Source: Bacteroides sp. ET71 | Lineage (GTDB): Bacteria; Bacteroidota; Bacteroidia; Bacteroidales; Bacteroidaceae | Assembly (NCBI RefSeq): GCF_023336905.1 | Contig: NZ_JAMBLS010000005.1 | Coordinates: 92,213-156,212 of the forward strand | Length of the DNA: 64,000 nt | Direction: 5' to 3' | Shown: positions 1,052 to 52,858 of the stretch, piece by piece | How positions within the stretch are numbered: the stretch's first letter is position 1 | Layout: each line of letters opens with the position of its first letter | Notes under the pieces: generated by a model | What the model saw: only the letters and a program-made list of their open reading frames with translations | Databases searched by the model: none | What the model was told of the DNA's origin: nothing | Made by a program: the position numbers and the translations under genes

Positions 1052-1161
1052 GACACTTAGCACAGGTGTCGCTGACACTTAGCACAAGTATCCGTGACAC
1101 TTAGCACAAGTGTCGGTGATACTTAGCACAAGTGTCGGTGATACTTAGCACAAGTGTCGGC
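1052..1161. repeat. Tandem hairpin array 1: five 22-bp units
   Basis: Five head-to-tail units start at 1052, 1074, 1096, 1118 and 1140, with no spacer DNA. Each unit has the arm GACACTT (or GATACTT), a 5-nt centre AGCAC, the opposing arm AAGTGTC (AGGTGTC in unit 1, AAGTATC in unit 2) and a 3-nt linker such as GGT. Each could form a small stem-loop. The array sits in the 453-bp gap between the orphan antitoxin and the hexapeptide-repeat gene, both on the minus strand. No protein is predicted across it. It is not a CRISPR array because there are no unique spacers. Confidence 0.9.
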
Positions 1162-1272
1162 CATGCGCAAGGGAAGTCTCCGCGATGTCTCTCGTGATGT
1201 AAGGATTTATTGTTTGAAAAGAAAGGCAGGAGCTTTGCACGGCTTTGGGGGAGGTAAGCTACGAGTGGTGGC

Positions 1273-1851
1273 TTATCTCCCCAGCATGTACTTGTTGAGG
1301 CTCCTGCGGTCCCAGTTGATGCCCCGTTTGACCACCTTGGCGGGGATGCCGGCCAGGATGACGTTGGGCTCGTCGAAGCGCCTGGTGACGATGCTTCCCC
1401 AGCCCACGATGCTGTAGTCGCCGATGCAGACGTGCGAGCGGTCTTCTTGCAAGTAGAGCGTGACGCCGTTGATGACCACCCGGTTGCCGATGCGCACGCG
1501 GCAGCCGTTGGCCGTGCGCGACACGCCCGCGCCCAGTCCCGGCAGTTGGCCGACGATGAGCTTCAGTCCCGTCATGCCCAGGATGGAGGAGCAGCGCACG
1601 ATGACGTGTCCCACCTCCACGTCGTTGTCATCGCCTTTGACAATCAGCAGGAAGCCGCCTCCCGTCAGCAGCTCTTCGGCAGCGGCCTCCGACTCGAAGT
1701 GCAGCAGCACGCGGTTGCGGTGGCCGATGATGGAGATGTCCGCCCTCTCCAGCAGGCGGCTTGTCAGGGCATCGGTCGTTGTCGTGCAGTTGACTTCCCG
1801 GTCGGGGAAGGCGAAGATGAGTTGGTTTTCGTTTCCTTCTATCTGTGTCAT
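1273..1851 (-). CDS. Hexapeptide-repeat (left-handed beta-helix) acyltransferase-like protein
   Basis: A 192-residue protein. The C-terminal 120 residues contain the short hydrophobic steps of a left-handed beta-helix (VRIGNRVVINGVTLYLQ, VCIGDYSIVGWGSIVTR, then NVILAGIPAKVVK). The last of these is the typical end of CysE/LacA/NodL-type acetyltransferases, where it closes the CoA site. The N-terminal 70 residues are less regular and not assigned. Substrate cannot be told; sugars and antibiotics are the usual acceptors of relatives. The gene starts just 15 nt downstream of the frameshifted toxin on the same strand, so it may be transcribed from the toxin-antitoxin promoter. The hairpin array lies 112 nt beyond its stop. 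Confidence 0.7.
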   Translation of the reverse strand: MTQIEGNENQLIFAFPDREVNCTTTTDALTSRLLERADISIIGHRNRVLLHFESEAAAEELLTGGGFLLIVKGDDNDVEVGHVIVRCSSILGMTGLKLIVGQLPGLGAGVSRTANGCRVRIGNRVVINGVTLYLQEDRSHVCIGDYSIVGWGSIVTRRFDEPNVILAGIPAKVVKRGINWDRRSLNKYMLGR

Positions 1852-1866
1852 GGGGATATATGGGTG

Positions 1867-2200
1867 TTATGGGTTATGGGTGTCGGTTCCGGTCAGTCCG
1901 TCGGCCTGTCGGACGGGCTCGCGTCGGGTGTCCCAGAGGTCGGCGATGTAAATAGTGTCACCTTCAACGTAATACACTATTTTGTAATTGGGATGCACGA
2001 CGATGCTGCGATAACCTTCCGGCTCTTTTTCAAGCAGTGGCTCTTTCTTTCCCATTCCGGGGTTGCTTTGCAAGAGTTGCTCGTAATCCAAGATAACGGG
2101 CATAGAATTTCTTCATTGCGCGTTCGCCAAATGTGTCGCGGCCATATTCCAGCGTATCGGCAAGTCTTTCGCTTGCATCATCATCCCATATCACTCGCAT
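1867..2200 (-). pseudogene. RelE/ParE-type toxin, frameshifted
   Basis: Two reading frames must be joined to recover a complete toxin. Frame 1 begins at the ATG at 2200 (MRVIWDDDASERLADTLEYG) and overlaps the antitoxin stop by 10 nt, the usual arrangement of such operons. The family-like continuation (LDYEQLLQSNPGMGKKEP, then YKIVYYVEGDTIYIADLWDTRREP) is one nucleotide out of register and starts near 2104. The C-terminal part aligns with the intact toxin at 22305-22628, which has YKIYYIILPTHILIGLVWDTRRNP. Without correction frame 1 runs into unrelated sequence (YLGLRATLAKQPRNGKERATA) and stops. There is no homopolymer slip site at the join. The toxin is probably inactive, unless the base call is wrong or frameshifting is programmed. 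Confidence 0.7.
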
Positions 2201-2445
2201 AGCCAAGGGTGTTTGTTTTCTATCATGCGTCTGACTTCTTCCGTCGTATGCACGCGTCCGGCCTTGATATTGGCACGCGAGCGTTCAATGCGGGCATTGA
2301 TTTCCTCCATGGTGTAGGGCGTGAGGCGTTGTTTTTCCTCTTCCTCTACTTCTTCGTAGAGCTTGCCGGCCAGCCAGCGTTTGTTGTCGGGACTGAGCGA
2401 TTGTATCAGTTTCCACAGATAATCCAATGATACGGTTGCTTCCAT
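2191..2445 (-). CDS. Type II antitoxin-like protein, partner of the frameshifted toxin
   Basis: The start is taken at the ATG at 2445 (MEATVSLDYLWKLIQSL, 84 aa) because the paralogue at 574-819 starts at the same place and because an AGGAGG stretch lies 9 nt upstream. An upstream ATG in frame would add 12 residues without similarity. The protein is helical and charged, with LSPDNKRWLAGKL in the first third and YTMEEINARIERSRANIKAG in the middle. It should bind and neutralise the RelE/ParE-type toxin encoded next, with which it overlaps by 10 nt (TGA inside ATGCGAGTGA). A well-formed promoter lies 34 nt upstream. DNA binding for autoregulation is expected of the family but no domain is evident. 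Confidence 0.7.
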   Translation of the reverse strand: MEATVSLDYLWKLIQSLSPDNKRWLAGKLYEEVEEEEKQRLTPYTMEEINARIERSRANIKAGRVHTTEEVRRMIENKHPWLCE

Positions 2446-2478
2446 AGTTGGTTCCTCCTTCGTTAGGTTCAACAGGGA

Positions 2479-2509
2479 CAAAGGTAAAAGAAAGGCAGGA
2501 ACTTTGCAA
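2479..2509 (-). promoter_or_regulatory. Promoter of toxin-antitoxin operon 1
   Basis: On the minus strand TTG (2507-2509) and TACCTTTG (2479-2486) are 20 bp apart, matching the Bacteroides -33/-7 consensus. It lies inside the serS terminator hairpin, so promoter and terminator overlap. Confidence 0.6.
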
Positions 2510-2522
2510 GCCCCTGCCTTCT
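2491..2522 (-). terminator. serS terminator
   Basis: AAAGGCAGG (2491-2499) pairs with CCTGCCTTC (2514-2522), loop about 14 nt, followed on the minus strand by a T-rich run. It is 32 nt beyond the serS stop. Confidence 0.65.
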
Positions 2523-2553
2523 TTTCTTGTGCATCTGTATAATATAATGTGTA

Positions 2554-3828
2554 TCAGTCAATCATGTCGAACCCGCAGTAGGGCACCAGTGCCTTGGGGA
2601 TGCGGATGCCCTGGGGCGTCTGGTTGTTCTCCAGCAGGGCGGCCACGATGCGGGGCAGGGCGAGGGCCGAGCCGTTGAGCGTGTGGCACAGCTCGATTTT
2701 CTTGTCCGCCGTGCGGTAGCGGCAGTGCAGGCGGTTGGCCTGGTAGGTGTCGAAGTTGGAGACGGAGCTGACCTCGAGCCAACGCTTCTGCGCCTCGCTG
2801 TAGACCTCGAAGTCGTAGCAGATGGCGGCGGTGAAGCTGATGTCGCCGCCGCAGAGGCGCAGGATGCGGTAGGGCAGTTCGAGCTTCTGCAGCAGGCCCT
2901 CGACGTGGTCTAGCATCTCCTGGTGGCTCTGGCGGCTGTGTTCGGGCTTGTCGATGCGGACGAGCTCTACCTTGGAGAACTCGTGCAGGCGGTTCAGGCC
3001 GCGCACGTCCTTGCCGTAGGAGCCGGCCTCGCGGCGGAAGCACTCGGTGTAGGCGCAGTTCTTGATGGGCAGGTCGCGCTCGTCGAGGATGACGTCGCGG
3101 TAGATGTTCGTGACGGGCACCTCGGCGGTGGGGATGAGGTAGAGGTCGTCCACCTCGCAGTGGTACATCTGTCCCTCCTTGTCGGGCAGTTGGCCGGTGC
3201 CGTAGCCCGAGGCGGCGTTGACCACCGTGGGGGGCATCACTTCGGTGTAGCCCGATGCGCGTGCTTCGTCCAGGAAGAAGTTGATGAGGGCGCGTTGCAG
3301 GCGGGCGCCTTTGCCTTTGTAGACGGGGAATCCGGCGCCGGTGATTTTCACGCCCAAGTCGAAGTCGATGATGTCATACTTCTTGGCCAGTTCCCAGTGG
3401 GGCAGGGCGTCCTTGGGCAGGGGTGTCTCCATGCCGCCCATCTTGACGACGAGGTTGTCTTCGGCGCCGTTGCCTTCGGGCACTTCGTCGTAGGGCACGT
3501 TGGGGATGGTGTAGAGCAGTTGTTGCAGGTCTTGGGCGGCCTGGTCCATGTCGGCTTGCAGTGTCTTGTTGGTCTCTTTCAGTTGGGCCACGCGTGCCTT
3601 GGCGGTTTCGGCCTCGTCGCGGCGGCCTTCCTTCATCAGTTGGCCGATGGTTTTGGAGGTGGCGTTCACTTCGGCCAGGTTGGTGTCCAGCACGGCTTGC
3701 GTGCTCTTGCGCTTGTTGTTGAGGGCCAGCACCTGGTCGATGGTCTCCTTGGCGTTCTTGAAATGTTTCTTCTCGAGTCCGCGCACCACGGCGTCGGTGT
3801 TCTCGGTGATTTGTTTGATGGTAAGCAT
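2554..3828 (-). CDS. serS: Seryl-tRNA synthetase
   Basis: 424 residues, the normal length for bacterial SerRS, which charges tRNA-Ser (and tRNA-Sec where present) with serine in the cytoplasm. The N-terminal 110 residues form the long antiparallel coiled coil that holds the tRNA variable arm (charged heptads through NKRKSTQAVLDTNLAEVNAT). The class II catalytic core follows: a TAEVPVTNIYRD segment, motif 2 FRREAGSYGKDVRGLNR near residue 265-285 with the ATP-binding arginine, and motif 3 NGSALALPRIVAALLENNQ near 385-403. A TATCTTTG box on this strand at 3884-3891 is a likely -7 element. It is flanked by its own terminator and a repeat-bearing gap, so it is probably monocistronic. Confidence 0.97.
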   Translation of the reverse strand: MLTIKQITENTDAVVRGLEKKHFKNAKETIDQVLALNNKRKSTQAVLDTNLAEVNATSKTIGQLMKEGRRDEAETAKARVAQLKETNKTLQADMDQAAQDLQQLLYTIPNVPYDEVPEGNGAEDNLVVKMGGMETPLPKDALPHWELAKKYDIIDFDLGVKITGAGFPVYKGKGARLQRALINFFLDEARASGYTEVMPPTVVNAASGYGTGQLPDKEGQMYHCEVDDLYLIPTAEVPVTNIYRDVILDERDLPIKNCAYTECFRREAGSYGKDVRGLNRLHEFSKVELVRIDKPEHSRQSHQEMLDHVEGLLQKLELPYRILRLCGGDISFTAAICYDFEVYSEAQKRWLEVSSVSNFDTYQANRLHCRYRTADKKIELCHTLNGSALALPRIVAALLENNQTPQGIRIPKALVPYCGFDMID

Positions 3829-3970
3829 GGTTTATACCTATTTATTTAATGTTATTTCATTTCGTTCTGTACGATTCGCGGGGCAAAGATACGCAAAAAA
3901 CCGATATGTGGTGATGTTCTGGTGAGAAGGCTTTTGCCGAAAGCAGATTTTCTTGTCCGTCAGTCTGTTG

Positions 3971-4036
3971 CTTGCCGGGTGCAACGGCTGCGCTTGCCGT
4001 TCGCCGCAGCCTTCCTTGCCGTGCGTGCCGGCCGCG
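3971..4036. repeat. Degenerate 22-bp tandem repeat with conserved CTTGCCG start
   Basis: Units start at 3971, 3993 and 4015, exactly 22 bp apart. Each begins CTTGCCG, while the other 15 bp have diverged. It occupies the gap between serS and the acidic protein at 4110 and stops just before that operon's terminator. Confidence 0.6.
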
Positions 4037-4054
4037 GCGCTTGTGGGGATAACG

Positions 4055-4088
4055 AAAGAGGGTATGCCTTGGCGGGCATACCCTCTTT
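4055..4088 (-). terminator. Terminator of the dnaE-trxA-4110 operon
   Basis: Perfect 14-bp stem AAAGAGGGTATGCC (4055-4068) with GGCATACCCTCTTT (4075-4088) and a 6-nt loop, 21 nt beyond the stop of the 111-aa gene. Confidence 0.8.
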
Positions 4089-4109
4089 GCATAAGTGTGC
4101 GGACCGATG

Positions 4110-4445
4110 TCAGTCTCCGTTGTCCAGCGAGTCGGCATAGTCCATCTCTCCCTGTACGATGAAGAGCAGTTCTTCGGGGTCATATTCACCCATTCCGTCT
4201 TTTCGGGCTTCCTTGACCATGTAATCGACAACTTTCTCCAGGTCGATTTCTATGCAGCCCTCTGCGTCGGGCTGTGCGTCGAGGATACCGCTTTGCGTGT
4301 AGTACTCGTCAATCAGGTCGAGGAAGTAATAGAACTCGTCGTCCGTGAACTTGTTTTTCAAGTCTTGCGGCAGGTAATTCTTAATGAACTCGATGGTCTT
4401 TTCGTCATCGAGGTCGTCCTGCAAAAAGTCGTCATCTTGTCTCAT
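4110..4445 (-). CDS. Conserved acidic hypothetical protein (111 aa)
   Basis: A strongly acidic protein (start MRQDDDFLQDDLDDEKT, end DYADSLDNGD), predicted helical, with no signal peptide or membrane segment and no motif that I recognise. It lies 49 nt downstream of trxA and ends at a strong terminator, so it is probably the last gene of a trxA-led transcript. Its conservation in this position in Bacteroidales is my recollection rather than something seen here. A cytosolic partner or chaperone-like role would be guesswork. Confidence 0.6.
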   Translation of the reverse strand: MRQDDDFLQDDLDDEKTIEFIKNYLPQDLKNKFTDDEFYYFLDLIDEYYTQSGILDAQPDAEGCIEIDLEKVVDYMVKEARKDGMGEYDPEELLFIVQGEMDYADSLDNGD

Positions 4446-4494
4446 GGTTGATGTCTTTTTAGAAGGTTTGGATGGTCTGAATGTCTGTACTGTC

Positions 4495-4809
4495 TTAGAG
4501 CAGTGCTTCCAGCTTGGCCACGAATGTTGCCTTGGGGGCCGAGCCTATCTGCTTGTCCACCAGCTCGCCGTTCTTGAAGAACAGCACGGCGGGAATGTTG
4601 CGGATGCCGTACTCCATGGCCAGGTCGTTGCTCTCTTCCACGTCGCACTTGCCGATGACAGCGCGTCCTTCATATTCCGTAGCCAGTTCGTCGATGATGG
4701 GGCTTACCATGCGGCATGGTCCGCACCACGTAGCCCAGAAGTCGATAACCACAGGCTTGTCGCCTGCCAGCAGTTCTTTGTAATTGCTTTCTGTAATGTT
4801 CAAAGCCAT
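4495..4809 (-). CDS. trxA: Thioredoxin
   Basis: 104 residues, the standard length of thioredoxin, a cytoplasmic disulfide reductase recycled by thioredoxin reductase. The active site WCGPC is at residues 28-32 within the beta-strand context VVIDFWATWCGPC. The cis-proline loop follows as IRNIPAVLFFKNGE. No signal peptide is present, so it is the cytosolic form. A TATCTTTG box on the minus strand at 4858-4865, at the 3' edge of dnaE, could give it its own promoter, while close spacing also allows read-through from dnaE (56 nt gap). Confidence 0.96.
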   Translation of the reverse strand: MALNITESNYKELLAGDKPVVIDFWATWCGPCRMVSPIIDELATEYEGRAVIGKCDVEESNDLAMEYGIRNIPAVLFFKNGELVDKQIGSAPKATFVAKLEALL

Positions 4810-4865
4810 AATGTTCTAATATTAAAGTTTGGTGTTTCTGATGATTCTCTTTCGCTGCAAAGATA

Positions 4866-7800
4866 CTAATTTATCTGGAACCTGAGGTCGGGATGCCCTT
4901 TTAAGTATGAAATCAGCTCGCGGCCCACGTTCAGTTTGACCGGTCTCGACACGAGGTCGACGGCCATGCGCGTATCTTTGTCCATCACCTTAAAGCACAG
5001 TTGCGTGTTGCCGGGGTGTGCTTTGGTCAGGTCGGCCAGTTCGGCGATGAGCCCTTTGTTCAGGACGCTGAGCGGAATGAAGATGGTAATCTTTTCCACC
5101 AGCTTCTCCTTCACGTCGGGCAGCAGCTCGATGGAAGTGACCTTTACCTCCAGCTCGTTCTGTTTCCATTGCTTGGCCTGGCACCGTGCCTTGATGAACA
5201 GGAAAGTCTTTTCGCCCAGGTAACCTTGCCAGGTGACCCAGTCGTTGCCAAAGAACGGCAGTTCGGCCGAGCCCGTGTAGTCTTCGATGCGGACGATGCC
5301 GTAGGGGTTGCCGTTCTTGCTGGTGCCACGCCGCACGTCAGTGACCATGCCTCCCATGGTGATTTCGCGTCCCACGAGGTTTTCTTTGTTCTCCAGTTCC
5401 TTCATGTGCGTGTTGCACACATTCTCCAGTATGACCGAAAACTCGTCCAACGGATGTGCCGAGAGGTAGATGCCTACCAGTTCGCGTTCCTTGTTCAGAC
5501 GCTCCAGGTCGCTCCAGCGTTCGGTGGGCAATATTTCGGGCGTAGAGACTTGCACCATGTTCTCGCCTCCGAACAGCGAGTTCAAGGCCATGGCCTTGTC
5601 CATTTGGTAGCGGTTGCCGTAGCGCACCAAAGTTTCCAAGAAGCTCTCGTTCTTGGCATTGACGGCGAAATACTGTTCGCGCGTCAGCTCGGGGAAGTTG
5701 TCGAAACTGCCGGACAGTGCCAGACATTCCAGGTTCTTCTTGTTGCAGGCGTTCAGGTTGACGCGCTGCACGAAGTCGAATATGCCTTTGTACGGCCCCT
5801 CCTTCTTACGCCCTTCTATGATGCTTTCTACGGCGCTTTCGCCCACTCCCTTCACGGCTCCCAGCCCGAAGCGGATGTTGCCCTCGGCATTGACGGTGAA
5901 CTTCAGGTTACTTTCGTTCACGTCCGGTCCCAATACCTTGATGCCCATTGCCTTACATTCATCCATGAACTTCGTGATGTCCGTGATGTTGTCCTTGCTT
6001 CGGCTCATCACGGCAGCCATGTATTCGGCGGGATAGTTGGCCTTGAGGTAGGCCGTCTGGTAAGCCACCCACGAGTAGCACGTGGCGTGCGATTTGTTGA
6101 AGGCGTACGAAGCAAACTTTTCCCAGTCCGCCCAGATTTTCTCCAACACCTTCGGGTCGTGGCCGTTCTTCTTGCCGCCTTCGATGAACTTGGGTTTCAT
6201 GTGGTCCAGCTTGTCGCGCAGCTTCTTACCCATCGCTTTGCGCAGGGCATCAGACTCACCGCGGGTGAAGTTGGCCAGCAATCGGGACAGCAACATGACC
6301 TGCTCCTGGTAGACGGTGATGCCATACGTGTCCTTCAGATACTTCTCCATGATAGGGATGTCATACTCGATGGGCTTGCGTCCCCACTTGCGGTCGATGA
6401 AGTCGGGGATGTAATCCATAGGCCCCGGCCGGTAGAGGGCGTTCATGGCGATGAGGTCCTCGAAGGTGCTGGGCTGAAGCTCGCGCAGGTACTTCTGCAT
6501 GCCGGCCGACTCGAACTGGAAGGTGCCCACGGTACGTCCGTCGCAGTAAAGTTTATAAGTGGCCGGGTCGTCTATGGGGATGGTGTCGATGTCCAAGTCT
6601 ATGCCCCGGTGCAACTTCACGTTGGCCACGGCTTCCTTGATAATGGAAAGCGTCTTCAGGCCTAAGAAGTCCATCTTGATCAGTCCGGTGTCTTCGATGA
6701 CCGAGCCTTCGTATTGTGTGACCAGCATCTTTTCGCCCGTCTCCTTGTCGTCGGCCGTGCTGACGGGCACCCAGTCGGTGATGTCGTCTCGGCAGATGAT
6801 GGTGCCGCAGGCGTGCACGCCCGTGCCTCGCACGTTTCCTTCCAGCATTTTGGCGTATTTGAGGGTGTCGCGCACGCGTTCGTCGGGCGAGGCTTCGGCG
6901 GCTCGCAGTTCGGGGACGTATTCGATGGCGTTGGGCAGGTTCAGCTTCTTGTCGGGAATCTTGTCGGGAATCAGTTTGCAGAGGCGGTCAGACTCGGCCA
7001 CGGAGAGCCCTTGCACGCGGGCCACGTCCTTGATAGCCATCTTCGTGGCCATCGTGCCGTAGGTGATGATGTGCGCCACTTTCTCCTGGCCGTACTTCTC
7101 CGTCACCCAGCGCAAGACTTCTCCGCGTCCGTCGTCGTCGAAGTCTACGTCGATATCGGGCAGCGAGATGCGGTCGGGGTTCAGGAAACGTTCGAACAGC
7201 AGGTCGTACTGTATGGGGTCGATCTTGGTGATGCCTAAGCAATAGGCCACGGCCGAGCCGGCCGCCGAGCCGCGTCCCGGGCCTACGGACACGCCCAGTT
7301 GGGTGCGCGCCGCGTTGATGAAGTCTTGCACAATGAGGAAGTAGCCCGGGAAACCCATTGTCTTCATGATGTATAGCTCGAACACCAGCCGTTCTTTGAT
7401 TTCCTCGGACAGCGGGTCGCCATACAGCCTTTTGGCTCCGTCGAAAGTCAGTTTGGCCAGGTAGTCGGCCTCCAACTTGATGCGGTACAGCTTCTCGTAG
7501 CCGCCCAAACGTTTGATTTTAGCGTTGGCGGCGTCTTCATCCAGCACGACGTTACCGTTTTCGTCCTGGGTGAACTCGTCGAACAAGTCTTTCTCGGTAT
7601 ATTTCTTTCGGTATTCTTCCTCCGTGCCGAAGTCTTCGGGGATGGCGAAGGTAGGCATGATGGGAGCGTGGTCTATGGAATAGTATTCCACTTTGTCCAG
7701 AATTTCCAGCGTATTCGAAAGGGCCTCGGGCACGTCGGCAAAAAGCTGGTTCATCTCTGCCTTGGTTTTCATCCATTCCTGCTTGGTGTAGAGCATCCGT

Positions 7801-8663: not shown

Positions 8664-8770
8664 AGTTTGAGTTTTCCTTTCTAATGAGCGCATAAAAATA
8701 CAACCAAATGCGGGATTGGGCAAAATTTTCTCCCAAAAGTTATTAACAGGTACTTTTCTGTACGCTTTTT

Positions 8771-8801
8771 TTGCTTCATGTTCAAAATAAGCCTATTTTT
8801 G
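8771..8801 (+). promoter_or_regulatory. Promoter of psd-pssA
   Basis: TTG (8771-8773), 20 bp, TATTTTTG (8794-8801); the psd start is 47 bp downstream. Confidence 0.6.
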
Positions 8802-8848
8802 CACGCAGATTCTACATTATTCATAACAACTGTTGTAATTACGAGATA

Positions 8849-9535: not shown

Positions 9536-9552
9536 TTATTTCTTTTTTGCTT

Positions 9553-10260: not shown

Positions 10261-10330
10261 ACTTTTTTTCGGCACGGTTGTTGTAGTTATACCTTCAGAG
10301 GTAATTCATTTTTAACTTAAAACCGGATAT

Positions 10331-10624: not shown

Positions 10625-10702
10625 GGTACTTAAGCGGTCGGTCGTCCGGAGATTCTTTCCGCTGTTGTGGCTGTGGTTCCTACGTCCGGCAGAGAGAGGT
10701 TT

Positions 10703-10749: not shown

Positions 10750-10762
10750 GGGGTATGCAGTC

Positions 10763-11035: not shown

Positions 11036-11058
11036 TTCTTCTTACTGTTTTTAATTGA

Positions 11059-14357: not shown

Positions 14358-14448
14358 GAGTGATTAATGGTTAATGATTAATGGTTAATGGTAAATGATG
14401 TCCGGCCGCACGTATTAACCATTAATCATTTACCATTCACCATTATTC
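14358..14448. repeat. AT-rich imperfect inverted repeat of iterated TTAATGGTTAATG
   Basis: Left arm made of TAATGGTTAATGATTAATGG-type steps (14361-14398), GC-rich centre TCCGGCCGCACG, right arm ATTAACCATTAATCATTTAC onward (14413-14448). Folds into a long hairpin between the TraB/GumN and HAD genes. A shorter relative follows at 15331-15410. Confidence 0.7.
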
Positions 14449-15393: not shown

Positions 15394-15981
15394 TCAATTG
15401 ATTCTTCCGCCCCGCATCCAGTGCTCGTCCCAATAGTCCTCGTCCAGCCGGCTGACCATGACGCCCCGGCTGGTGCTGGCGTGGACAAACTTGCCGTCTT
15501 TCAGGTAGATGCCCACATGGTTGACGCGGCGTTTGCGGCTTCCGTGGAAGAAAACCAGGTCTCCTTCGCGCAATTTGCCCCGGCGGACCCGGCTCGTGGC
15601 ATCCATTTGCTGGTCGGTGCTGCGGGGCAGGTCGATGCCGTAGGCCGCCTTGTAGACCTGGCGCACGAAGCCTGAGCAGTCCGTGCCTCGTCGGCTCTGT
15701 CCGCCGCTGCGATAGGGTGTGCCTATCCACTGCGCGGCCTCCAGGTAGAGGGCGTGGTGGTCCTTGGGACCAATGTCCACACCCAGGCGGTCGGCGGCGC
15801 GGACCAGGGCGCGGTAGTCCAGCTTGGGCGCAGCGGTGCGGCAGCCGGTCAGGCAGAGGAGAAAGAATATAAATGAAGAATAAAGAATGAGGAATGAAGA
15901 ATGGGCGCGTAGCGTCCGCTTCCGGCGATTCTTGTCTCTCGTCTTTCGTCCTTCATGTTTGGTTAATTCTTCATTCTTCAT
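15394..15981 (-). CDS. NlpC/P60 family lipoprotein (C40 peptidase)
   Basis: 195 residues. The C-terminal domain has the papain-like catalytic set: Cys102 in TDCSGFVRQVY, His155 in VNHVGIYL, then a short polar residue region after GKFVHASTSRG. Such enzymes cut D-Glu-meso-DAP bonds in peptidoglycan peptides. The N-terminus is odd: about 27 polar, basic residues (MKNEELTKHEGRKTRDKNRR), then AHSSFLILYSSFIFFLLC and a lipobox LTGC with Cys47. The start codon and most of the hydrophobic segment are encoded by copies of the ATTCTTCATT repeat on the opposite strand. No nearer methionine exists. The catalytic domain is secure; whether export works from this leader is uncertain. Confidence 0.85.
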   Translation of the reverse strand: MKNEELTKHEGRKTRDKNRRKRTLRAHSSFLILYSSFIFFLLCLTGCRTAAPKLDYRALVRAADRLGVDIGPKDHHALYLEAAQWIGTPYRSGGQSRRGTDCSGFVRQVYKAAYGIDLPRSTDQQMDATSRVRRGKLREGDLVFFHGSRKRRVNHVGIYLKDGKFVHASTSRGVMVSRLDEDYWDEHWMRGGRIN

Positions 15982-16075
15982 TCTTTATTCTTCATTCTTT
16001 ATTCTTCATTCTTTATTCTTCATTTATTTCGTTCTTCATTGATTCGTAGATTCTTCATTATTCATTTCTTCGGCT
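15864..16075. repeat. ATTCTTCATT/AATGAAGAAT iterated tract
   Basis: Plus-strand AATGAAGAATAAAGAATGAG-type steps at 15870-15904 and ATTCTTCATTCTTTATTCTT steps at 15964-16068. The tract overlaps both ends of the NlpC/P60 leader and the last codons of the ABC ATPase gene (EEMNNEESTNQ), so genic ends on both sides are made of repeat sequence. Confidence 0.85.
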
Positions 16076-16773: not shown

Positions 16774-16813
16774 ATCTTTATTCTTTTATAGGTTACGGGT
16801 GTCGTAAAGGATA

Positions 16814-16905
16814 CTTTCCGGGTATCGGAAAGGAGGCATTCCGGGTATCGGAAAGGAGGCATTCCGGGTGCCGGAAAGGAAGCATTCCGGGTGCCGGAAA
16901 GGAGC
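16814..16905. repeat. Tandem hairpin array 2: four 23-bp units inside an operon
   Basis: Units start at 16814, 16837, 16860 and 16883. Each has TTCCG, a 5-nt centre (GGTAT or GGTGC) and CGGAA, followed by an AGGAGGCA-type linker; units 3 and 4 widen the palindrome to TTCCGG-GTG-CCGGAA. The array abuts the stop codon of the DUF5687 gene (16906) and lies in the mRNA between it and its ATPase partner. Confidence 0.9.
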
Positions 16906-18402: not shown

Positions 18403-18409
18403 GGATTTA

Positions 18410-18532
18410 ATGAAGAATTAAGAATGAAGAGTGAAGAATGAAAAATGAAGAGTGATGAATGGGTGCGTGGCGTCGTCCGCTTCTTGCTCAGATTCTTCAT
18501 TCTTCGTTCTTCATTCTTCATTTAACTTATTA
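18410..18532. repeat. AATGAAGAAT / ATTCTTCATT inverted repeat
   Basis: AATGAAGAATTAAGAATGAA steps (18411-18459) face ATTCTTCATTCTTCGTTCTT steps (18495-18522) across a GC-rich centre (18460-18494). The arms would pair as a long hairpin between the M16 protease and DUF5687 genes and may end transcription. Confidence 0.75.
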
Positions 18533-42699: not shown

Positions 42700-42800
42700 A
42701 AATGAAGAATTGAGAATGAAGAATGAAGAATTTTGCACAGCTTTCCGGGGGAACATTCTTCATTTCTCCGCGAAGCGGATGTTCTTCATTCCTCATTCGT
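42700..42800. repeat. AATGAAGAAT / ATTCTTCATT inverted repeat
   Basis: AATGAAGAATTGAGAATGAA steps (42703-42733) face CATTCTTCATT and GTTCTTCATTCCTCATTCG (42753-42799) around a GC-rich centre, between the M20 peptidase and aroC. Confidence 0.75.
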
Positions 42801-42801
42801 G

Positions 42802-45811: not shown

Positions 45812-45838
45812 TTCGATAGCCATCGAAGAGATTAACAG

Positions 45839-45873
45839 CGACGCCCGGCCTTCTTGCTGAAGACCGGGCGTCG
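45839..45873 (+). terminator. Terminator of the DUF4925-like gene
   Basis: CGACGCCCGG(C)CTTC at 45839-45853 pairs with GAAGACCGGGCGTCG (45859-45873); one unpaired position. Confidence 0.7.
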
Positions 45874-46032
45874 TTCGCTTTCTTGCATCGGGCATCCCGA
45901 GCATCGGTGTTCAGATATCTTGGACATAGGCACTTGGGCTTCCCCGTGCCTTTTTCATGCCGTGGACGGGAGGTCGGGAGCGAAGTCGGAGGCTAAGTCT
46001 GGCCCTCGGCAATAATATTTTCCCCTAAACGC

Positions 46033-46062
46033 TTGCCTGCTATGGAAAAATGCTTATTTTTG
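46033..46062 (+). promoter_or_regulatory. Promoter of the RelA/SpoT gene
   Basis: TTG (46033-46035), 19 bp, TATTTTTG (46055-46062), 53 nt before the ATG. Confidence 0.65.
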
Positions 46063-46115
46063 CAAACACGCTCCCCGCAAGCAGAAAGAGCGCACCGATT
46101 TAAAGAGCAAGAACT

Positions 46116-48383
46116 ATGGAAGAGCATTTGAGTCTGAAAGAAAAAGAGCAGGCCGAAGAAGCCATGATACAGCAAGCGTTCCAGGAACTGCTGAATGACT
46201 ACCTGGCCACCAAACACCGCAAACGCGTGGAAATCATCACCAAAGCGTTCAACTTTGCCAACCAGGCCCACCGCGGCATCAAACGACGTTCGGGCGAACC
46301 CTACATCATGCACCCCATCGCCGTGGCAAAAATCGTGTGCAACGAAATAGGACTCGGCTCTACCTCCATCTGCGCCGCCCTCCTGCACGACGTGGTGGAG
46401 GATACCGACTATACGGTAGAGGACATTGAGAATATCTTCGGCCACAAAATTGCGCAGATTGTGGACGGGCTGACCAAAATCTCCGGCGGCATCTTCGGCG
46501 ACCGCGCCTCGGCACAGGCGGAGAACTTCAAGAAGCTGCTGCTCACCATGAGCGATGACATCCGCGTCATCCTTATCAAGATAGCCGATCGTCTGCACAA
46601 CATGCGCACGCTGGGGTCCATGCTGCCCAACAAGCAATACAAGATTGCCGGCGAGACGCTTTATATCTACGCTCCCCTGGCTCACCGACTGGGGCTGAAC
46701 CGTATCAAGACAGAGCTGGAAAACCTCAGCTTCAAGTACGAACACCCCGAAGAATATGCCGAGATAGAGAAGAAGCTGGCCGCCACGGCAGCCGAGCGTG
46801 ACAAGGTTTTCCAGGAGTTTACCGCTCCCATTCGCGCCCAGTTGGACAAGATGGGCTTGCAGTACCACATCCTGGCCCGTGTCAAATCCATCTACTCCAT
46901 CTGGAACAAGATGCAGACCAAGCATGTGCCTTTTGAGGAAATCTACGACATCCTGGCCGTACGCATTGTCTTCAAACCGCGCAACATGGAGGAAGAACTG
47001 AACGATTGCTTCGACATCTACGTGGCTATCTCCAAGATATACAAACCGCATCCCGACCGCCTGCGCGACTGGGTAAGCCATCCGAAGAGTAACGGATACC
47101 AGGCCCTGCACGTCACCCTCATGGCCAACAACGGACAGTGGATAGAGGTGCAGATACGCAGCGAACGCATGGACGACGTGGCCGAGCAGGGCTTTGCCGC
47201 TCATTGGAAATACAAGGAAGGTGGAGGCGGCGAGGACGAAGGCGAGCTGGAACGCTGGCTGCATACCATCAAGGAGATTCTGGACGACCCGCAGCCCGAT
47301 GCCATCGACTTCCTGGACACCATCAAGCTGAACCTCTTCGCTTCGGAGATTTTCGTCTTCACGCCCAAGGGCGACTTGAAGACCATGCCTCAGGATTCTA
47401 CCGCGCTGGACTTTGCTTTCTCTCTTCATACCGACATTGGAACGCACTGCATCGGCGCGAAGGTCAACCATAAGCTGGTTCCTCTGAGCCATCGTTTGAA
47501 CAGTGGCGACCAGGTGGAAATACTGACTTCGAAAGCCCAACGCATACAGCCCGAATGGGTGGGGTTCGTCACCACTGCCCGCGCCAAGGCCAAGATTACC
47601 GAAATTCTGCGCAAAGAGGAGAAAATCAATCAGCAGAAAGGTGAAGTGCTCTTGAACGAGTTTTTGCAGAAAGAGGGCGTGCCGGTAGATGCTTCTTCCA
47701 TTGACCGCCTGACGAATCTGCATAACTTCCATACTCCCGACGAACTGATGGCCGCCATTGGCAGTGGTAAAGTGGTGCTGGGCGATGTAGACCGTAATCT
47801 TTTCAAGGAGAAGCAGGGGAAGAATTGGAAGAAACTGCTGTCTTTCTCTTTCGTGAAGGACACTGTCAAGGACGGGAAAGACGGCAAGGTGGTACCGAAG
47901 GCCGAGGGCAAGCCTGAGAAAATTGATACCAAGAAGATTCTGAAACTGACGGAGGAGGCCATCTCCAAAGAATACATCATGGCAGAGTGTTGCCATCCTA
48001 TTCCCGGCGATGACGTATTAGGCTATATCGACGAGCAAAACCGGGTTATCATACACAAACGGCAGTGCCCCGTGGCCGTGAAACTGAAGAGCAGCTATGG
48101 CAACCGCATCATTGCCACGCAATGGGACACGCACAAAGACCTTTCGTTCCTGGTTACTATCTATGTGAGAGGCATTGACGGAGTGGGGGTCTTGAATGAA
48201 GTCACACAAGTCATCTCGCGCCAACTCAACGTGAACATCCGCAAGCTGAACATCGATGCTATTGATGGCATTTTTGAGGGGAAGATACAGCTTTACGTAC
48301 ACGACGTGGACGATGTGCGGACCATCTGTAATAACCTGAAGCAGTTGCAGCACATCAAAGAGGTGGCCCGCGTCGAGGATTAA
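46116..48383 (+). CDS. Bifunctional (p)ppGpp synthetase/hydrolase (RSH)
   Basis: 755 residues with all four RSH parts. The HD hydrolase domain is intact: HRGIKRRSGEPYIMHPIAVA near 48-67 and HDVVEDTDYT near 91-100. The synthetase domain has RVKSIYSIWNKMQ and HPKSNGYQALHVTL. A TGS domain follows (VFTPKGDLKTMPQDSTALDFA near 415). The C-terminal zinc-finger and ACT regions include AECCHPIPGDDVLGYI and LNEVTQVISRQLNVNI. It therefore should both make and degrade the stringent-response alarmone. Ends 1 nt from the convergent MerR gene. Confidence 0.95.
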   Translation: MEEHLSLKEKEQAEEAMIQQAFQELLNDYLATKHRKRVEIITKAFNFANQAHRGIKRRSGEPYIMHPIAVAKIVCNEIGLGSTSICAALLHDVVEDTDYTVEDIENIFGHKIAQIVDGLTKISGGIFGDRASAQAENFKKLLLTMSDDIRVILIKIADRLHNMRTLGSMLPNKQYKIAGETLYIYAPLAHRLGLNRIKTELENLSFKYEHPEEYAEIEKKLAATAAERDKVFQEFTAPIRAQLDKMGLQYHILARVKSIYSIWNKMQTKHVPFEEIYDILAVRIVFKPRNMEEELNDCFDIYVAISKIYKPHPDRLRDWVSHPKSNGYQALHVTLMANNGQWIEVQIRSERMDDVAEQGFAAHWKYKEGGGGEDEGELERWLHTIKEILDDPQPDAIDFLDTIKLNLFASEIFVFTPKGDLKTMPQDSTALDFAFSLHTDIGTHCIGAKVNHKLVPLSHRLNSGDQVEILTSKAQRIQPEWVGFVTTARAKAKITEILRKEEKINQQKGEVLLNEFLQKEGVPVDASSIDRLTNLHNFHTPDELMAAIGSGKVVLGDVDRNLFKEKQGKNWKKLLSFSFVKDTVKDGKDGKVVPKAEGKPEKIDTKKILKLTEEAISKEYIMAECCHPIPGDDVLGYIDEQNRVIIHKRQCPVAVKLKSSYGNRIIATQWDTHKDLSFLVTIYVRGIDGVGVLNEVTQVISRQLNVNIRKLNIDAIDGIFEGKIQLYVHDVDDVRTICNNLKQLQHIKEVARVED

Positions 48384-48384
48384 C

Positions 48385-48795
48385 TTACGAACCGGCTTCC
48401 GGCTTCCGGTCTTCTTCGATGTTCTTTTTCAGCGCATCCATGTCCTCGTAACTGAAGGCGTTCAAGGCGTCGCGCATGCTTACCAGCTCCTCGCGGATGG
48501 ATTTCAGCCGTTCCACCGCTTCGTAGTTGCGGAGGGTTGTCTCGCGGTTGTCTTTCAGCCGTTGGCGGGCGCCTTGCAGAGTCATGCCGCGTTCTTTCAC
48601 CAGATGGTATATCAGTTTTAGTGCCTCGATGTCTTCGGTGTTGTATTGGCGCACGCCTCTTCCCGCCCGCTTGGGCTTAAGCTGTTGCGGAAACTCGTCT
48701 TCCCAGTAGCGCAGCAGCGATTCGGTCACGCCCAGCATCTGGGCCACTTCGCTGATGGAGTAATATAGCTTCAGGTTCTTGTTCTTGTTCAGCAT
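48385..48795 (-). CDS. MerR family transcriptional regulator
   Basis: 136 residues. The winged helix-turn-helix is at the N-terminus (LKLYYSISEVAQMLGVTESL then LRYWEDEFPQQLKPKRAGRG), with the MerR arginine-tyrosine-tryptophan pattern. A coiled-coil dimer helix follows. There is no cysteine cluster for metal binding, so the effector is unknown. Convergent with the RSH gene (stop codons 1 nt apart), and 137 nt downstream of the M23 gene with hairpin array 3 in between. Confidence 0.9.
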   Translation of the reverse strand: MLNKNKNLKLYYSISEVAQMLGVTESLLRYWEDEFPQQLKPKRAGRGVRQYNTEDIEALKLIYHLVKERGMTLQGARQRLKDNRETTLRNYEAVERLKSIREELVSMRDALNAFSYEDMDALKKNIEEDRKPEAGS

Positions 48796-48842
48796 GTCGT
48801 CTGTGGTTTGACTTTCTTCTTCTTTCTTTTATTATTATGGTA

Positions 48843-48925
48843 GAGCGGACTGCTCTCTTGCTATCGAGCGGACTGCTCTCTTGCTATCGAGCAGATTGCT
48901 CTCTTGCTATCGAGCAAGTCGCTCG
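48843..48925. repeat. Tandem hairpin array 3: three full 23-bp units plus a partial
   Basis: Units start at 48843, 48866, 48889 and (partial) 48912. Each has GAGC, a 5-nt centre (GGACT, AGATT or AAGTC) and GCTC, then the linker TCTTGCTATC. The centre varies while the arms are constant. The array ends 7 nt before the stop codon of the M23 peptidase gene and precedes the MerR start by 47 nt. Confidence 0.9.
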
Positions 48926-48931
48926 TTCCGG

Positions 48932-49900
48932 TCAGTCCATCATCTTGCCGTGGTTGGCGGCCAGTTGTATCATGCGGTCATAGTCCTCGGCGCTCAGGTC
49001 CATGAAGTAGTAGTTGACGGGGTTCACCACGCGACCTTTCACGTGCACCTCGTAATGCAGATGCGGCCCGGTGCTTTTGCCTGTGCTGCCCACGCCGCCT
49101 ATCACTTCGCCGCGCACCACCTTTTTGCCCAGCCGTGTGCGGAATTCCTGAAGATGTGCGTACCAGGTCTCATAACCGAATCCGTGGTCGATGACGATGA
49201 TGTTGCCATAGCCCGTCTGCCAGCCCATCTTTACCACTGTTCCATCTCCCGTGGCGTAGACATCTGTGCCCGGATTGGCGGAGAAATCCATGCCCGCGTG
49301 GAAGCGCGTCGTGCCGTAGATGGGGTCTATGCGTGTGCCGTAACCCGAAGCCGTTTTCTTCAGGTCTTTGTTGGACACGGGCTGAATGGCGGGGATGCAG
49401 CGCAGCATTTCGTCGTGTTGCCGGCACATCTCCACCACTTCGTCGAACGAGCGCGACTGGATGTACAGTTGTTTCGTCAGCAAGTCCAGCTTCTGTGTTG
49501 TGCTTACCACCAGTTCCGCGTCGGCCATGTTCATCAGATGCTCGTAGCGGTTGGTTCTTCCGTAGCCGGCCTGGCGGATGGCCGAGGGGATGGGGTCGGC
49601 CTGGAAGATGACGCGGTAGAGGTTGTCATCGCGCTGTTGGATGTCCTGCAACACGCCCATCGCTTCGTCCATGCGGTGCGACAAGACGTTGTATTGCGAC
49701 AACAGGCGGCTGTTCTCCTTGCGCAGTTCTTTTTCGGATGGCGAGCCGAAGATGATGAGCGGGGCAATGAAGCACGCCGCGCCCAGTCCCATGCCGATGA
49801 ACAGGCGGCGCAGGTGGCTCATCAGCCGCTGGCGGACGGTGGGGTAGATGCGGTCGTAGGTCTGGGTACGTGGGTTGTAAATGTAGTAAACTTTGCGCAT
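48932..49900 (-). CDS. M23 family metallopeptidase (membrane-anchored)
   Basis: 322 residues. A basic cytoplasmic start (MRKVYYIYNPRTQTYDRIYP) is followed by one transmembrane helix (LFIGMGLGAACFIAPLIIFG) and a coiled-coil (EKELRKENSRLLSQYNVLSH). The C-terminal LytM/M23 domain has the zinc motif in RFHAGMDFSANPGTD (HxxxD) and HLHYEV (HxH) near residue 285. It cleaves peptidoglycan cross-bridges in the periplasm or serves as a regulator of division amidases. Divergent from alaS; the two -7 boxes lie within 30 bp (TACTTTTG minus at 49930-49937, TATCTTTG plus at 49950-49957). Confidence 0.92.
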   Translation of the reverse strand: MRKVYYIYNPRTQTYDRIYPTVRQRLMSHLRRLFIGMGLGAACFIAPLIIFGSPSEKELRKENSRLLSQYNVLSHRMDEAMGVLQDIQQRDDNLYRVIFQADPIPSAIRQAGYGRTNRYEHLMNMADAELVVSTTQKLDLLTKQLYIQSRSFDEVVEMCRQHDEMLRCIPAIQPVSNKDLKKTASGYGTRIDPIYGTTRFHAGMDFSANPGTDVYATGDGTVVKMGWQTGYGNIIVIDHGFGYETWYAHLQEFRTRLGKKVVRGEVIGGVGSTGKSTGPHLHYEVHVKGRVVNPVNYYFMDLSAEDYDRMIQLAANHGKMMD

Positions 49901-49949
49901 GATGGGGAATTATTTCGCTGTCAATGCGGCAAAAGTAATAAAAACAAGC

Positions 49950-49957
49950 TATCTTTG
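49950..49957 (+). promoter_or_regulatory. -7 element of alaS
   Basis: TATCTTTG, 37 nt before the alaS ATG; faces the M23 gene's -7 box 12 bp away. Confidence 0.5.
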
Positions 49958-49994
49958 CGCAGTTTTTTGAGAATATTAACCGCTAAATAAGAGT

Positions 49995-52616
49995 ATGTTG
50001 ACTGCAAATGAAATCAGAGACTCGTTCAAGAGTTTCTTCGAGAGCAAAGGACACCATATCGTACCCTCGGCTCCCATGGTGATAAAAGATGACCCCACGC
50101 TGATGTTCACCAACGCGGGAATGAACCAGTTCAAAGACATCATTCTGGGCAACCATCCGGCGCAATGGAAGCGCGTGGCCGACTCGCAGAAGTGCCTGCG
50201 TGTCAGCGGAAAGCACAATGACCTGGAAGAAGTGGGACACGACACGTACCACCACACCATGTTCGAGATGCTGGGTAACTGGTCGTTCGGCGATTATTTC
50301 AAGAAAGAGGCCATCTCCTGGGCATGGGAATACCTGGTGGACGTGCTGAAACTGAATCCTGACAACCTCTATGCCACCGTCTTCGAGGGAAGTCCCGAAG
50401 AGGGGCTGGGCCGCGACGACGAGGCGGCTGCCTATTGGGAACAATTCCTCCCCAAAGACCATATTATCAACGGCAACAAGCACGATAACTTCTGGGAGAT
50501 GGGCGAGACAGGGCCCTGCGGACCTTGTTCGGAGATTCACATCGACCTGCGCAGCGAGGAAGAGAAGGCCCAGGTGCCCGGACGGGACATGGTGAACCAC
50601 GACCACCCGCAGGTCATCGAAATCTGGAACCTCGTGTTCATGCAGTTCAACCGCAAGGCCGACGGCAGCCTGGAGGATTTGCCGGCCCGTGTCATTGATA
50701 CCGGCATGGGCTTCGAGCGTCTTTGCATGGCTCTTCAGGGCAAGACGTCCAACTATGACACCGATGTCTTCCAACCCATGATACAGGCCATTGCCACGAT
50801 GGCCGGCACGCCGTATGGGGCGGATGCGCAGAAAGACGTGGCCATGCGCGTGGTGGCCGATCATATCCGCACGATTGCTTTCTCTATCACCGACGGGCAG
50901 TTGCCGGGCAATGCCAAGGCGGGCTATGTCATCCGCCGCATCTTGCGCCGTGCCGTGCGCTATGGCTACACGTTCCTGGGGCAGAAACGGGCGTTCATGT
51001 ACAAGCTTTTGCCGGTGCTGATACAGGAGATGGGAACGGCTTATCCCGAGTTGGGCGATCAGAAAGACCTTATCGCCAAGGTGATGAAGGAAGAAGAGGA
51101 GACGTTCTTGCGCACATTGGAGACGGGCATCCGCCTGCTGGACAAGACGATGGCCGAAGCGAAGGCTGCCGGACGGACGGAAATCAGCGGAAAGGATGCC
51201 TTCACGCTGTACGACACCTTCGGCTTCCCGTTGGATCTGACGGAGCTTATCTTGCGCGAGAATGGCATGACGGCCGACATTGAAGCGTTCAACGCCGAGA
51301 TGCAGCAGCAGAAGCAGCGTGCCCGCAATGCCGCTGCCGTGGAGACCGGAGACTGGGTTACGCTGAAGGAAGGCACCACGGAGTTCGTCGGCTATGACTA
51401 TACGGAATATGAGACCAGCATCTTGCGCTACCGCCAGGTGAAGCAGAAGAACCAGACGCTCTACCAGATTGTGCTGGACAAGACGCCGTTCTACGCCGAA
51501 AGCGGCGGCCAGGTGGGCGACACCGGTGTGCTGGTCAGCGAATACGAGACGATAGAAATCATCGACACGAAGAAGGAGAACAATCTGCCCATCCACCTGG
51601 CCAAGACGCTGCCCACGCATCCCGAGGCGCCGATGATGGCCTGTGTCGACGTGGAGAAGCGCGCCGCCTGTGCCGCCAACCACTCGGCCACGCACCTGCT
51701 GGACGAGGCGTTGCGTCAGGTGCTCGGCGACCACGTGCAGCAGAAAGGCTCGCTCGTGACGCCCGACTCGCTCCGCTTCGACTTCTCGCACTTCCAGAAG
51801 GTGACGGACGAACAGCTACGCGAGGTGGAACACCGCGTTAATGCCAAGATACGTGCCAACATCCCCCTGACCGAACATCGCAACATCCCCATCGAGGAAG
51901 CCCGCGAACTGGGTGCCATCGCCCTCTTCGGCGAGAAATATGGTGACCACGTGCGCGTCATTCAGTTCGGCTCGTCCATCGAGTTCTGCGGCGGCACGCA
52001 CGTACCCGCCACGGGCTGCATCGGCATGGTCAAGATTATCTCTGAGAGTTCCGTGGCCGCCGGCGTGCGCCGCATCGAGGCCCTGACGGGTGCGAAGGTG
52101 GAGGAACTGATGGACGGCATACAGGATACTATCCAGGGACTGAAGGTGCTCTTCAACAACGCCCCCGACCTGACTGCCGCCATCCGCCGCTACATCGACG
52201 AGAACGCCGGGCTGAAGAAGCAAATCGAGGACTTCATGCGCGAGAAGGAGGCGCAGTTGAAGGAGCGGCTCCTGAAGGGCATGAAGGAGGTGCACGGCGT
52301 GAAGGTCGTATCGTTCTGCGCGCCCATCGCGCCGGACATGGCCAAGAACATCGCCTTCCAACTGCGGGGCGAGCTGGGCGACAGCTTCTGCTTCGTAGCC
52401 GGAACCGTCTTCGAGGGCAAGCCCATGCTGACGGTGATGCTGGGCGAGAAGCTCGTGGCCGACGGACTGAAGGCCGGTGCGCTGGTGAAGGAAGCCGCAC
52501 GACTCATCTTGGGCGGCGGCGGCGGGCAACCGCACTTTGCTACGGCAGGCGGCAAGAACCCCGATGGCCTCAAGGCCGCTGTGGACAAGGTGCTGGAGCT
52601 GGCCGGGCTGCAGTAA
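49995..52616 (+). CDS. alaS: Alanyl-tRNA synthetase
   Basis: 873 residues. The class II catalytic domain starts [20 protein letters not shown] and includes [20 protein letters not shown]. The editing domain has [13 protein letters not shown] (HxxxH near 560) and [11 protein letters not shown] (CxxxH near 660) for clearing Ser/Gly-tRNA-Ala. The C-Ala domain closes with [20 protein letters not shown]. Complete and typical. Confidence 0.97.
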
Positions 52617-52795
52617 AATGAAAGAGGGGGTGTGCCGAATATGGAATTGCACACAGATGACACGGATTAAGGACAGATGACCACTGATGATATGTTATAA
52701 ATCTGCGAAAATCTGTTTAATCCGTGTTATCTGCGTGCCAATGTCTCATTACGCGGCACACCTCCTTTTTTATGCCCTCTGCGCGGGCGTTGAAA

Positions 52796-52858
52796 AACTC
52801 TGGTGCAGAGTTTACCCAAACTCTGATGCAGAGTTTACCCGAACTCTGGGCAGAGTTT
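52796..52858. repeat. Tandem hairpin array 4: three units, 23-bp period
   Basis: AACTCT at 52796, 52819 and 52842. Units have AACTCT, centre GGTGC or GATGC (GGGC in the third), AGAGTT and a TACCCA/TACCCG linker. It lies between alaS and the DUF4954 gene, which converge. Confidence 0.8.

Follow-up and report, generated by a model that had tools for sequence, protein, structure and literature searches.

Five intergenic arrays of tandem repeats with a pitch of 22 or 23 bp were found in a 64,000-nt stretch of the Bacteroides sp. ET71 genome (the window; NZ_JAMBLS010000005.1, positions 92,213–156,212 of the forward strand), which lies within contig 5 of an assembly of 3,625,986 bases in 189 contigs. 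Together with similar arrays across this genome, they are probably tandem DNA binding sites, as predicted by comparative analysis, of paralogous HU/IHF-superfamily proteins that have been expanded in the Bacteroidaceae family. Two types of gene–array modules point to this function: class I modules, where an array precedes a gene of the HU-HIG family (PF18291), and class II modules, where an array follows a gene of the HU-DNA_bdg family (PF14848). Based on this gene neighborhood and on the sequences of the arrays, we infer that the HU-like proteins bind the arrays adjacent to their genes. Genomes (G000 being the one studied), contigs and loci are denoted below by G, C and L numbers, respectively.

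The pitch is the constant feature of the arrays. In a sample of 1,246,390 bp (34% of the genome), for which 973 genes were called by a simple codon model, Tandem Repeats Finder (TRF) reported 135 intergenic arrays, 88 of which have a period of 22–24 or 44–46 bp (52, 17 and 7 arrays with periods of 22, 23 and 24; 6, 2 and 4 arrays with periods of 44, 45 and 46). Among the remaining 47 intergenic arrays, 26 have a period of 7, 14 or 21 bp. The same period class comprises only 6 of the 43 arrays in coding regions (none with period 22, one with 23, four with 24 and one with 44). We also used a TRF-free lag test, which counts intergenic regions where a 22-base window recurs at a given lag; the thresholds of the array tests were set by us. 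Among 596 intergenic regions of the genome, recurrence was detected in 67, 21 and 18 regions at lags 22, 23 and 24, and in 45 and 15 regions at lags 44 and 66, with a median of three regions over lags 25–42. The lag-22 peak is also present in loci from other Bacteroidaceae (14/138 and 20/274 regions); loci from other Bacteroidales show no peak (3/162 regions). The idea that periods vary freely, and that the four window arrays listed by an earlier sequence-only reading were chance picks, therefore fails on the peaked distributions of both periods and lags. The closest named relatives of this genome, judged by its DUF4954 protein, are uncultured Bacteroides sp. A13 bin.173 and Candidatus Bacteroides intestinipullorum (93% identity each).

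Neutral slippage repeats with palindromes arising by chance are hardly credible as an explanation of these arrays. Repeats with periods of 7, 14 and 21 bp are indeed common in the same spacers, but slippage does not account for a peak at 22–24 bp with little at 25–42 bp, nor for the excess of palindromes and the association with HU-like genes described below.

Among 77 small proteins adjoining arrays, HU-HIG was the most frequent family, with eight members. The genome contains 23 PF18291 places, 22 above the curated cut-off and two representing short canonical-like HU genes (L292 and L293), which were excluded from the counts for this genome; heptamer-like repeats were excluded from the HU tests. 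According to TRF, upstream arrays are present for 17 of 21 HU-HIG genes versus 75 of 520 background genes with an upstream spacer of at least 100 bp (Fisher odds ratio 25, p = 7e-11), the inspected span being 420 bp before the domain for HU-HIG genes and 350 bp before the gene for the background; the farthest nearest array is 297 bp away. One of the four HU-HIG genes without an upstream array, L294, is itself a class II gene, L331. In the stricter lag test, arrays were found upstream of 15/21 HU-HIG genes versus 94/918 of all genes of this genome, and the control lags gave 1/21 (lags 26–30) and 0/21 (lags 32–36).

The same arrangement was observed in related genomes, where the HU-HIG loci that we read were selected from many matches (30 from the genus and 28 from the order, the latter including six long and 22 short HU genes). 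Within the genus, the best-scoring HU-HIG locus was taken from each of 30 other genomes; 24 of these loci have an array, 23 of them at lag 22, and none gave a signal in either control range. Among 29 loci from 13 genomes with HU-HIG proteins similar to L281 (three loci are from the genome studied, and L344, which has no upstream sequence, was excluded), 23 have an array, always at lag 22 (array threshold, 15/18 matches), with 0/29 at the control lags. As a control, short HU genes of other families have an array in two of 19 cases, both AT-rich and at lag 20, after exclusion of three genes with less than 200 bp of upstream sequence.

Class I arrays have a pitch of 21–23 bp, mostly 22 bp, and their cores differ as judged by eye, except for the common core of L276 and L290, which encode proteins with 88% identity. 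The Bacteroides-type -7 motif, TAnnTTTG, occurs between 110 bp before and 45 bp into the array in 23 of 61 class I loci versus 3 of 61 equal control windows. Thus, many class I arrays are likely located near the transcript start, suggesting autorepression of the HU-HIG genes.

The assignment of these proteins to the HU/IHF superfamily is based on profiles, and eight HU-like proteins were individually confirmed to be members. The HU-HIG protein L272 additionally matches the HU structure 5eka in PDB with an E-value of 1.1e-4 and IHF chains weakly, with E-values of at least 0.014; a PDB search with the L281 protein gave no match at E 0.01. Both PF18291 and PF14848 are expanded in the genus, PF18291 having the 23 places mentioned above and up to 41 in one of 60 genomes; in a separate order-wide sample, 50 of 60 genomes have only one to three matches.

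Several loci have unusual arrays. At L044 (16684–17104), three near-identical pitch-22 arrays are located 176 bp (8 x 22) apart upstream of the HU-HIG gene. At L273 (2033–2271 in gene orientation), an array of 10.8 copies with pitch 22, the most copies among the HU-linked arrays seen in this genome, lies downstream rather than upstream of the HU-HIG gene. The loci L046 (3001–3190) and L294 (2437–2885) have arrays of 44 bp (2 x 22) and 115 bp (5 x 23) with a repeat of the ATCCTGAGCGAAGC / GTCATGTTGAGC type, which also occurs at other places of the genome.

Class II modules follow the mirror arrangement. PF14848 has 16 places in the genome, 12 of them above the cut-off, and five of the 16 are also listed under PF18291; L337–L340, which fall below the cut-off and are class I genes, were excluded. 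The three PF14848 genes that were checked also carry an Ig-like DUF4469 domain. In the lag test, 10 of the 12 PF14848 genes have an array within 260 bp downstream of their stop codon versus 76/916 of all genes, with 0/12 at both control lag ranges (26–30 and 32–36). The pitch is 23 bp in six of these arrays, 24 bp in three and 22 bp in one, and eight of the ten lie within about 30 nt of the stop codon by eye. In relatives, 17 of 25 PF14848 genes have a downstream array versus 0/25 at lags 27–32; this set was obtained from 30 loci by excluding L380, L381, L391 and L392, which are below the cut-off, and L385, which is located at a contig end.

The four window arrays of the sequence-only reading were recovered by TRF with their places, periods and palindromes, together with a previously overlooked fifth array, and the palindrome score of each of the five was reached by none of 40 column permutations:

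Array 1, 1044–1160, between two minus-strand genes: TRF period 22, 5.4 copies.
Array 1 dyads, GACACTT-AGCAC-AAGTGTC and near variants: 19 bp, five dyads at pitch 22, with units starting at 1052, 1074, 1096, 1118 and 1140.
Array 2, 16796–16904, TTCCG-GCACC-CGGAA on the minus strand: pitch 23, 4.7 copies by TRF; the stop codon of a DUF5687 gene is 2 nt before it, and an ABC ATPase gene starts 23 nt after it.
Array 3, 48843–48925 (48843–48915 by TRF), GAGC-nnnnn-GCTC dyads: pitch 23, 3.2 copies, in a spacer flanked by an M23 peptidase gene on one side and a MerR-type gene on the other.
Array 4, 52795–52858, AAACTCTG-GTG-CAGAGTTT followed by ACCC: 2.8 copies at pitch 23, located between convergent genes; by eye, the dyad has 8-bp arms and a 3-nt center.
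Array 5, 56499–56556, CTGTT-nnnnnnnn-AACAG: pitch 23, 2.5 copies by TRF, upstream of a GTPase gene (GTP-bdg_N/M and MMR_HSR1 domains).
Array core GACACTTAGCACAAGTGTC: predicted target of the HU-HIG protein L281.

The window itself gave no match to the HU-HIG protein profile, and the link to HU-like genes was out of sight of the sequence-only reading; the second HU class (PF14848) was not sought there in this way. Several window spacers also contain AT-rich heptamer repeats of the AATGAAG / ATTCTTC type with periods of 7, 14 and 21 bp (14361–14445, 15862–16040, 18409–18522, 42701–42731 and 54921–55159), which are a second frequent type of tandem repeat in the spacers of this genome.

Among the 88 sampled arrays of the 22–24-bp pitch class, 49 are significantly palindromic. 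The dyad centers of these 49 arrays range from 0 to 14 nt and measure 5 nt in only eight of them, and thus the 5-nt center previously regarded as usual does not hold genome-wide. The array sequences had also been described as private to their loci, which is true for at most half of the sample: 44 of the 88 arrays have no second locus, and the other 44 do. The array 1 unit occurs at six places in the genome, and the array 4 unit is restricted to one locus here but has three loci in each of the relatives G065 and G141.

The family of array 1 (family A) comprises 77 units from 18 loci in seven genomes, which are not all independent, as some loci are orthologous and a limit of six mismatches per unit was applied. 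All 59 steps between its units measure 22 bp, nine core positions are invariant in 77/77 units, and the 3-nt linker takes 19 forms and is near-random. For 47 strongly palindromic arrays, the conservation of the arms surpasses that of the linkers by 0.189, more than selection bias accounts for in simulations with uniform mutation (mean 0.047, maximum 0.121, n = 60). Thus, family A and these 47 arrays display the traits of an operator array, namely a conserved dyad core, fixed spacing and a free linker. Unrelated palindromes at pitch 22 without sequence repetition show only a mild excess in the genome. Two individual arrays illustrate how units differ. In the middle of L264 (G141 C23), the core CTGCACCAGAGTT is near-constant, the 10-nt linker varies by unit, and a pitch of 23 bp is held. 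At L009 (the DUF5687 spacer of G033), a single array contains two unit types with a common ACACC center and differing arms, as if the arms had been replaced unit by unit.

Among the mechanisms offered by the sequence-only reading, phased binding sites fit best the family A core and its exact steps, and mRNA hairpins fit less well. At the RNA level, tandem hairpins in transcripts (in the 5' untranslated region for class I and at the 3' end for class II) would be bound by the HU-like protein or by RNases and would adjust the stability or translation of the mRNA. Transcription of the arrays is plausible, given the -7 motif close before 23/61 class I arrays and the location of class II arrays within 260 bp past the stop codon; furthermore, 15 of 63 co-directional arrays begin at most 10 nt from a stop codon. 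Three observations speak for DNA over RNA: mispairs in the arms on the coding strand are G-U in 13 cases and A-C in 20; the asymmetric family A center faces both ways relative to transcription (10:7 among 17 co-directional loci, 3:3 in the genome studied); and the spacer types are used approximately in proportion to their numbers (63/388 co-directional, 15/96 divergent and 8/64 convergent spacers, plus two arrays at edges). In addition, hairpins need no exact pitch, yet every family A step is 22 bp. We therefore disfavor RNA hairpins as the selected element and regard this explanation as quite improbable.

Module cores recur at other loci, which extends the predicted binding sites beyond the modules themselves. 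The 88 sampled arrays include 12 module arrays, and 17 of the other 76 match the core of a module from the same genome (30 module arrays), one of them lying in the spacer of its own module. By comparison, 2/76 match the 22 HU arrays of other species that served as a control, a set somewhat smaller than the 30. The core of array 1 is the core of the array upstream of the HU-HIG gene L281 (G000:C14:50039-50515), and array 5 weakly matches the array after the PF14848 gene L329 (score 21; shuffled maximum 15). The array 4 unit family occurs upstream of similar HU-HIG genes in G065 and G141, and G065 thus has both a long array 4 and an array of its family upstream of an HU-HIG gene in the same genome. 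For the spacers orthologous to those of arrays 2 and 3, two matches to class II arrays were found: between the DUF5687-spacer array of G033 and the array following a PF14848 gene in G002 (score 44), and between the M23-spacer array of G058 and the array following the PF14848 gene L326 of the genome studied (score 38). In the middle of L263 (G065 C113), two array families abut, the first with a core resembling by eye the upstream core of the HU-HIG gene L291 of the genome studied and the second belonging to the array 4 family.

A number of observations weigh against the assignment of the arrays to HU-like proteins. The HU proteins known so far mostly lack sequence specificity, and 39 of the 88 sampled arrays are not significantly palindromic. 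No module core is matched by 59 of the 76 non-module arrays, including arrays 2, 3 and 4 when compared within the genome; arrays 2 and 3 have no convincing partner, with best scores of 18 and 16 against a shuffled maximum of 15. The co-occurrence of family A and its HU gene in 13 genomes is not clean, partly because several genomes are incomplete (the 12 relatives are 63–96% complete): both are present in G000, G141, G002 and G033; the array without an HU homolog of at least 66% identity in G065, G064 and G016; the HU gene without the array in G125, where the contig is cut; and neither in G015, G058, G057, G041 and G143. The pairing of HU-HIG genes with upstream arrays is not universal. In stretches that were not picked for HU genes, only two of five HU-HIG genes have an upstream array, and among the loci from other families of the order, a lag-22 array was found in two of six (G180 and G187) and none in the other four.

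The comparison of proteins with their arrays adds further counterpoints. Class I arrays are shared in 47 of 49 pairs with at least 70% protein identity versus 9 of 962 pairs with 20–30% identity, a contrast that largely reflects shared descent and that includes the contig-cut loci L307 and L314 at misplaced positions. Since the stretch between the array and the gene is as well conserved as the array, and only the far flank is less conserved, the similarity of class I proteins and arrays is inseparable from shared descent, and we rejected it as independent proof of co-evolution. Close homologs of class II often have differing arrays, and 12 of 42 pairs with 70–90% protein identity score above 14; the comparison covered 140 nt after the stop codon, and thus some arrays were missed. 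Class II arrays change faster than the proteins. For example, L374, L375 and L383, whose proteins are 82–88% identical, retain an ACACC-like center with arms that differ and are still palindromic.

Turnover of the arrays is evident at orthologous spacers. The DUF5687 spacer of array 2 contains other units with a pitch of 22–24 bp in three relatives with 84–87% protein identity and in one with 64% identity; by eye, 25 of the 30 loci read have no array. In the M23 spacer of array 3, a pitch 22–23 array is present in eight of the ten nearest species, including the one studied, with five or six different units by eye, and no array was seen by eye in the other two, G033 and G041. The array 3 locus has one extra unit in the sister species G065, which shows 93.6% flanking identity over 73 spacers, and six other relatives have different units there, with pitch 22 or 23. 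The adjacent MerR gene was considered as the binder of array 3 and rejected, since its start is near-identical by eye in relatives with differing arrays. At the array 2 position, G065 has a different unit; its array 4 has nine or ten copies versus 2.8 in the genome studied; and another spacer has four copies in G065 versus one, with a constant dyad and changing linkers. At orthologous spacers, units are replaced between species, and the location and pitch are kept. The proposal that the architecture is preserved more than the sequence is thus borne out both by the prevalence of the 22–24-bp pitch in the sample and by orthologous spacers having an equal pitch and different units.

The same turnover could be produced by mobile or self-amplifying minisatellites, where recombination or replication makes and disperses units of 22–24 bp, and HU-like proteins are cofactors or mere neighbors; IHF is a cofactor for some recombinases. 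The copy number changes between sister species (one more unit in array 3, from 2.8 to nine or ten copies in array 4, and from one to four in another spacer), the differing number of array 4 family loci (one here, three each in G065 and G141), and the unit replacement at orthologous spacers are all consistent with such a process. Nevertheless, cores that stay invariant and linkers that vary freely while the pitch is exact would require selection after duplication, and duplication alone leaves the arrays at HU-like genes unexplained. The Y1 transposase (PF01797) was found in none of six genomes searched versus five of 14 control genomes, and the flanks of family A have by eye no common leader or tail, the only similarities being short ones between some flank pairs, for example, L001 and L004. 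We consider this explanation improbable on the whole; a dedicated repeat-generating enzyme, also raised by the sequence-only reading, is retained as a possible source of units, with the transposase result applying to the six genomes.

Under the preferred reading of the arrays as HU-like protein binding sites, dimers of each protein would bind the dyad-symmetric cores in a side-by-side packing, with one dimer every 22–24 bp. HU and IHF act as dimers, and one dyad core per 22–24 bp fits this packing. The core and the pitch would be under selection and the linker would drift. Class I arrays near the transcription start would provide autorepression, and dispersed arrays with a module core would be further targets with a regulatory or nucleoid-organizing role. 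Array turnover would follow the gain, loss and re-targeting of modules. A bolder extension, which we put forward tentatively and hold to be rather doubtful, is a multi-member code of the Bacteroidaceae: approximately 30 HU-like paralogs in the genome studied, most with their own array that has spread to other spacers and been rewritten between sister species, might undergo fast protein–site co-evolution resembling that of PRDM9 and define paralog-specific nucleoid or regulatory territories, possibly serving as a self-marking defense against incoming DNA.

The arrays offer candidate sites for many HU-like paralogs, whose specificity, autoregulation and regulons are testable in common gut bacteria. 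If the assignment is correct, a good part of spacer tandem repeats would be explained, as 29 of the 88 sampled arrays either belong to a module or carry a module core, and the system would add a bacterial example of a DNA-binding protein family that co-evolves rapidly with its sites. A search of open-licence literature, with subscription papers mostly outside its scope, found no description of HU-linked arrays or of targets of PF18291 and PF14848 proteins; its pertinent hits were the BrickBuilt repeat and a survey of repetitive extragenic palindromes (PMC3733652). HU proteins and tandem operators are each already known, and the pairing of protein and site may be new in combination.

Among known systems, the HU/IHF superfamily includes the neighboring genes by profile (PF18291 and PF14848) and one of them by a match to a solved HU structure. 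A typical HU shows little sequence preference, whereas the paralogs described here seem to have their own site arrays. Tandem operator arrays of autoregulated dimeric regulators, such as ARG boxes with a center spacing of approximately 21 bp, are similar in having dyad cores about two helical turns apart beside the gene of the presumed binder, as found here in 17/21 cases upstream of HU-HIG genes and in 10/12 cases downstream of PF14848 genes. The present arrays differ from them by approximately 30 paralogs with different cores in this genome, by 2 to about 11 units per array, by many non-promoter places and by rapid replacement between species. Repetitive extragenic palindromic (REP) elements are short extragenic palindromes dispersed singly or in pairs and tied to a Y1 transposase (the REP-associated tyrosine transposase, RAYT). 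The likeness is limited to short repeated extragenic palindromes, whereas the present arrays are head-to-tail with a fixed pitch and many different cores, and the REP/RAYT system was rejected on the transposase search of six genomes described above. An array of clustered regularly interspaced short palindromic repeats was also rejected, since linkers of 3 to about 10 nt lie between the dyads in place of fixed-length unique spacers; no search was made for cas genes.

The closest described repeat is BrickBuilt of Porphyromonas gingivalis, which resembles the present arrays in being a 23-nt, tandem and intergenic repeat without spacers; its copies are imperfect, their number varies between strains, and stem-loops are predicted (PMC4596501). 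BrickBuilt is a single repeat family that has leader and tail segments as well as small inverted repeats at its ends and is read as a miniature inverted-repeat transposable element, whereas many families per genome and a pairing of genes with arrays characterize the system described here; the main text of that article does not use the term "HU protein" (PMC4596501). According to a table in this source, one of the 19 BrickBuilt places, BrickBuilt_14, adjoins PGN_0872, which encodes a DNA-binding protein assigned to the HU family, PF00216 (PMC4596501), a location that would fit the reading of 22–24-bp arrays as sites of HU-like proteins.

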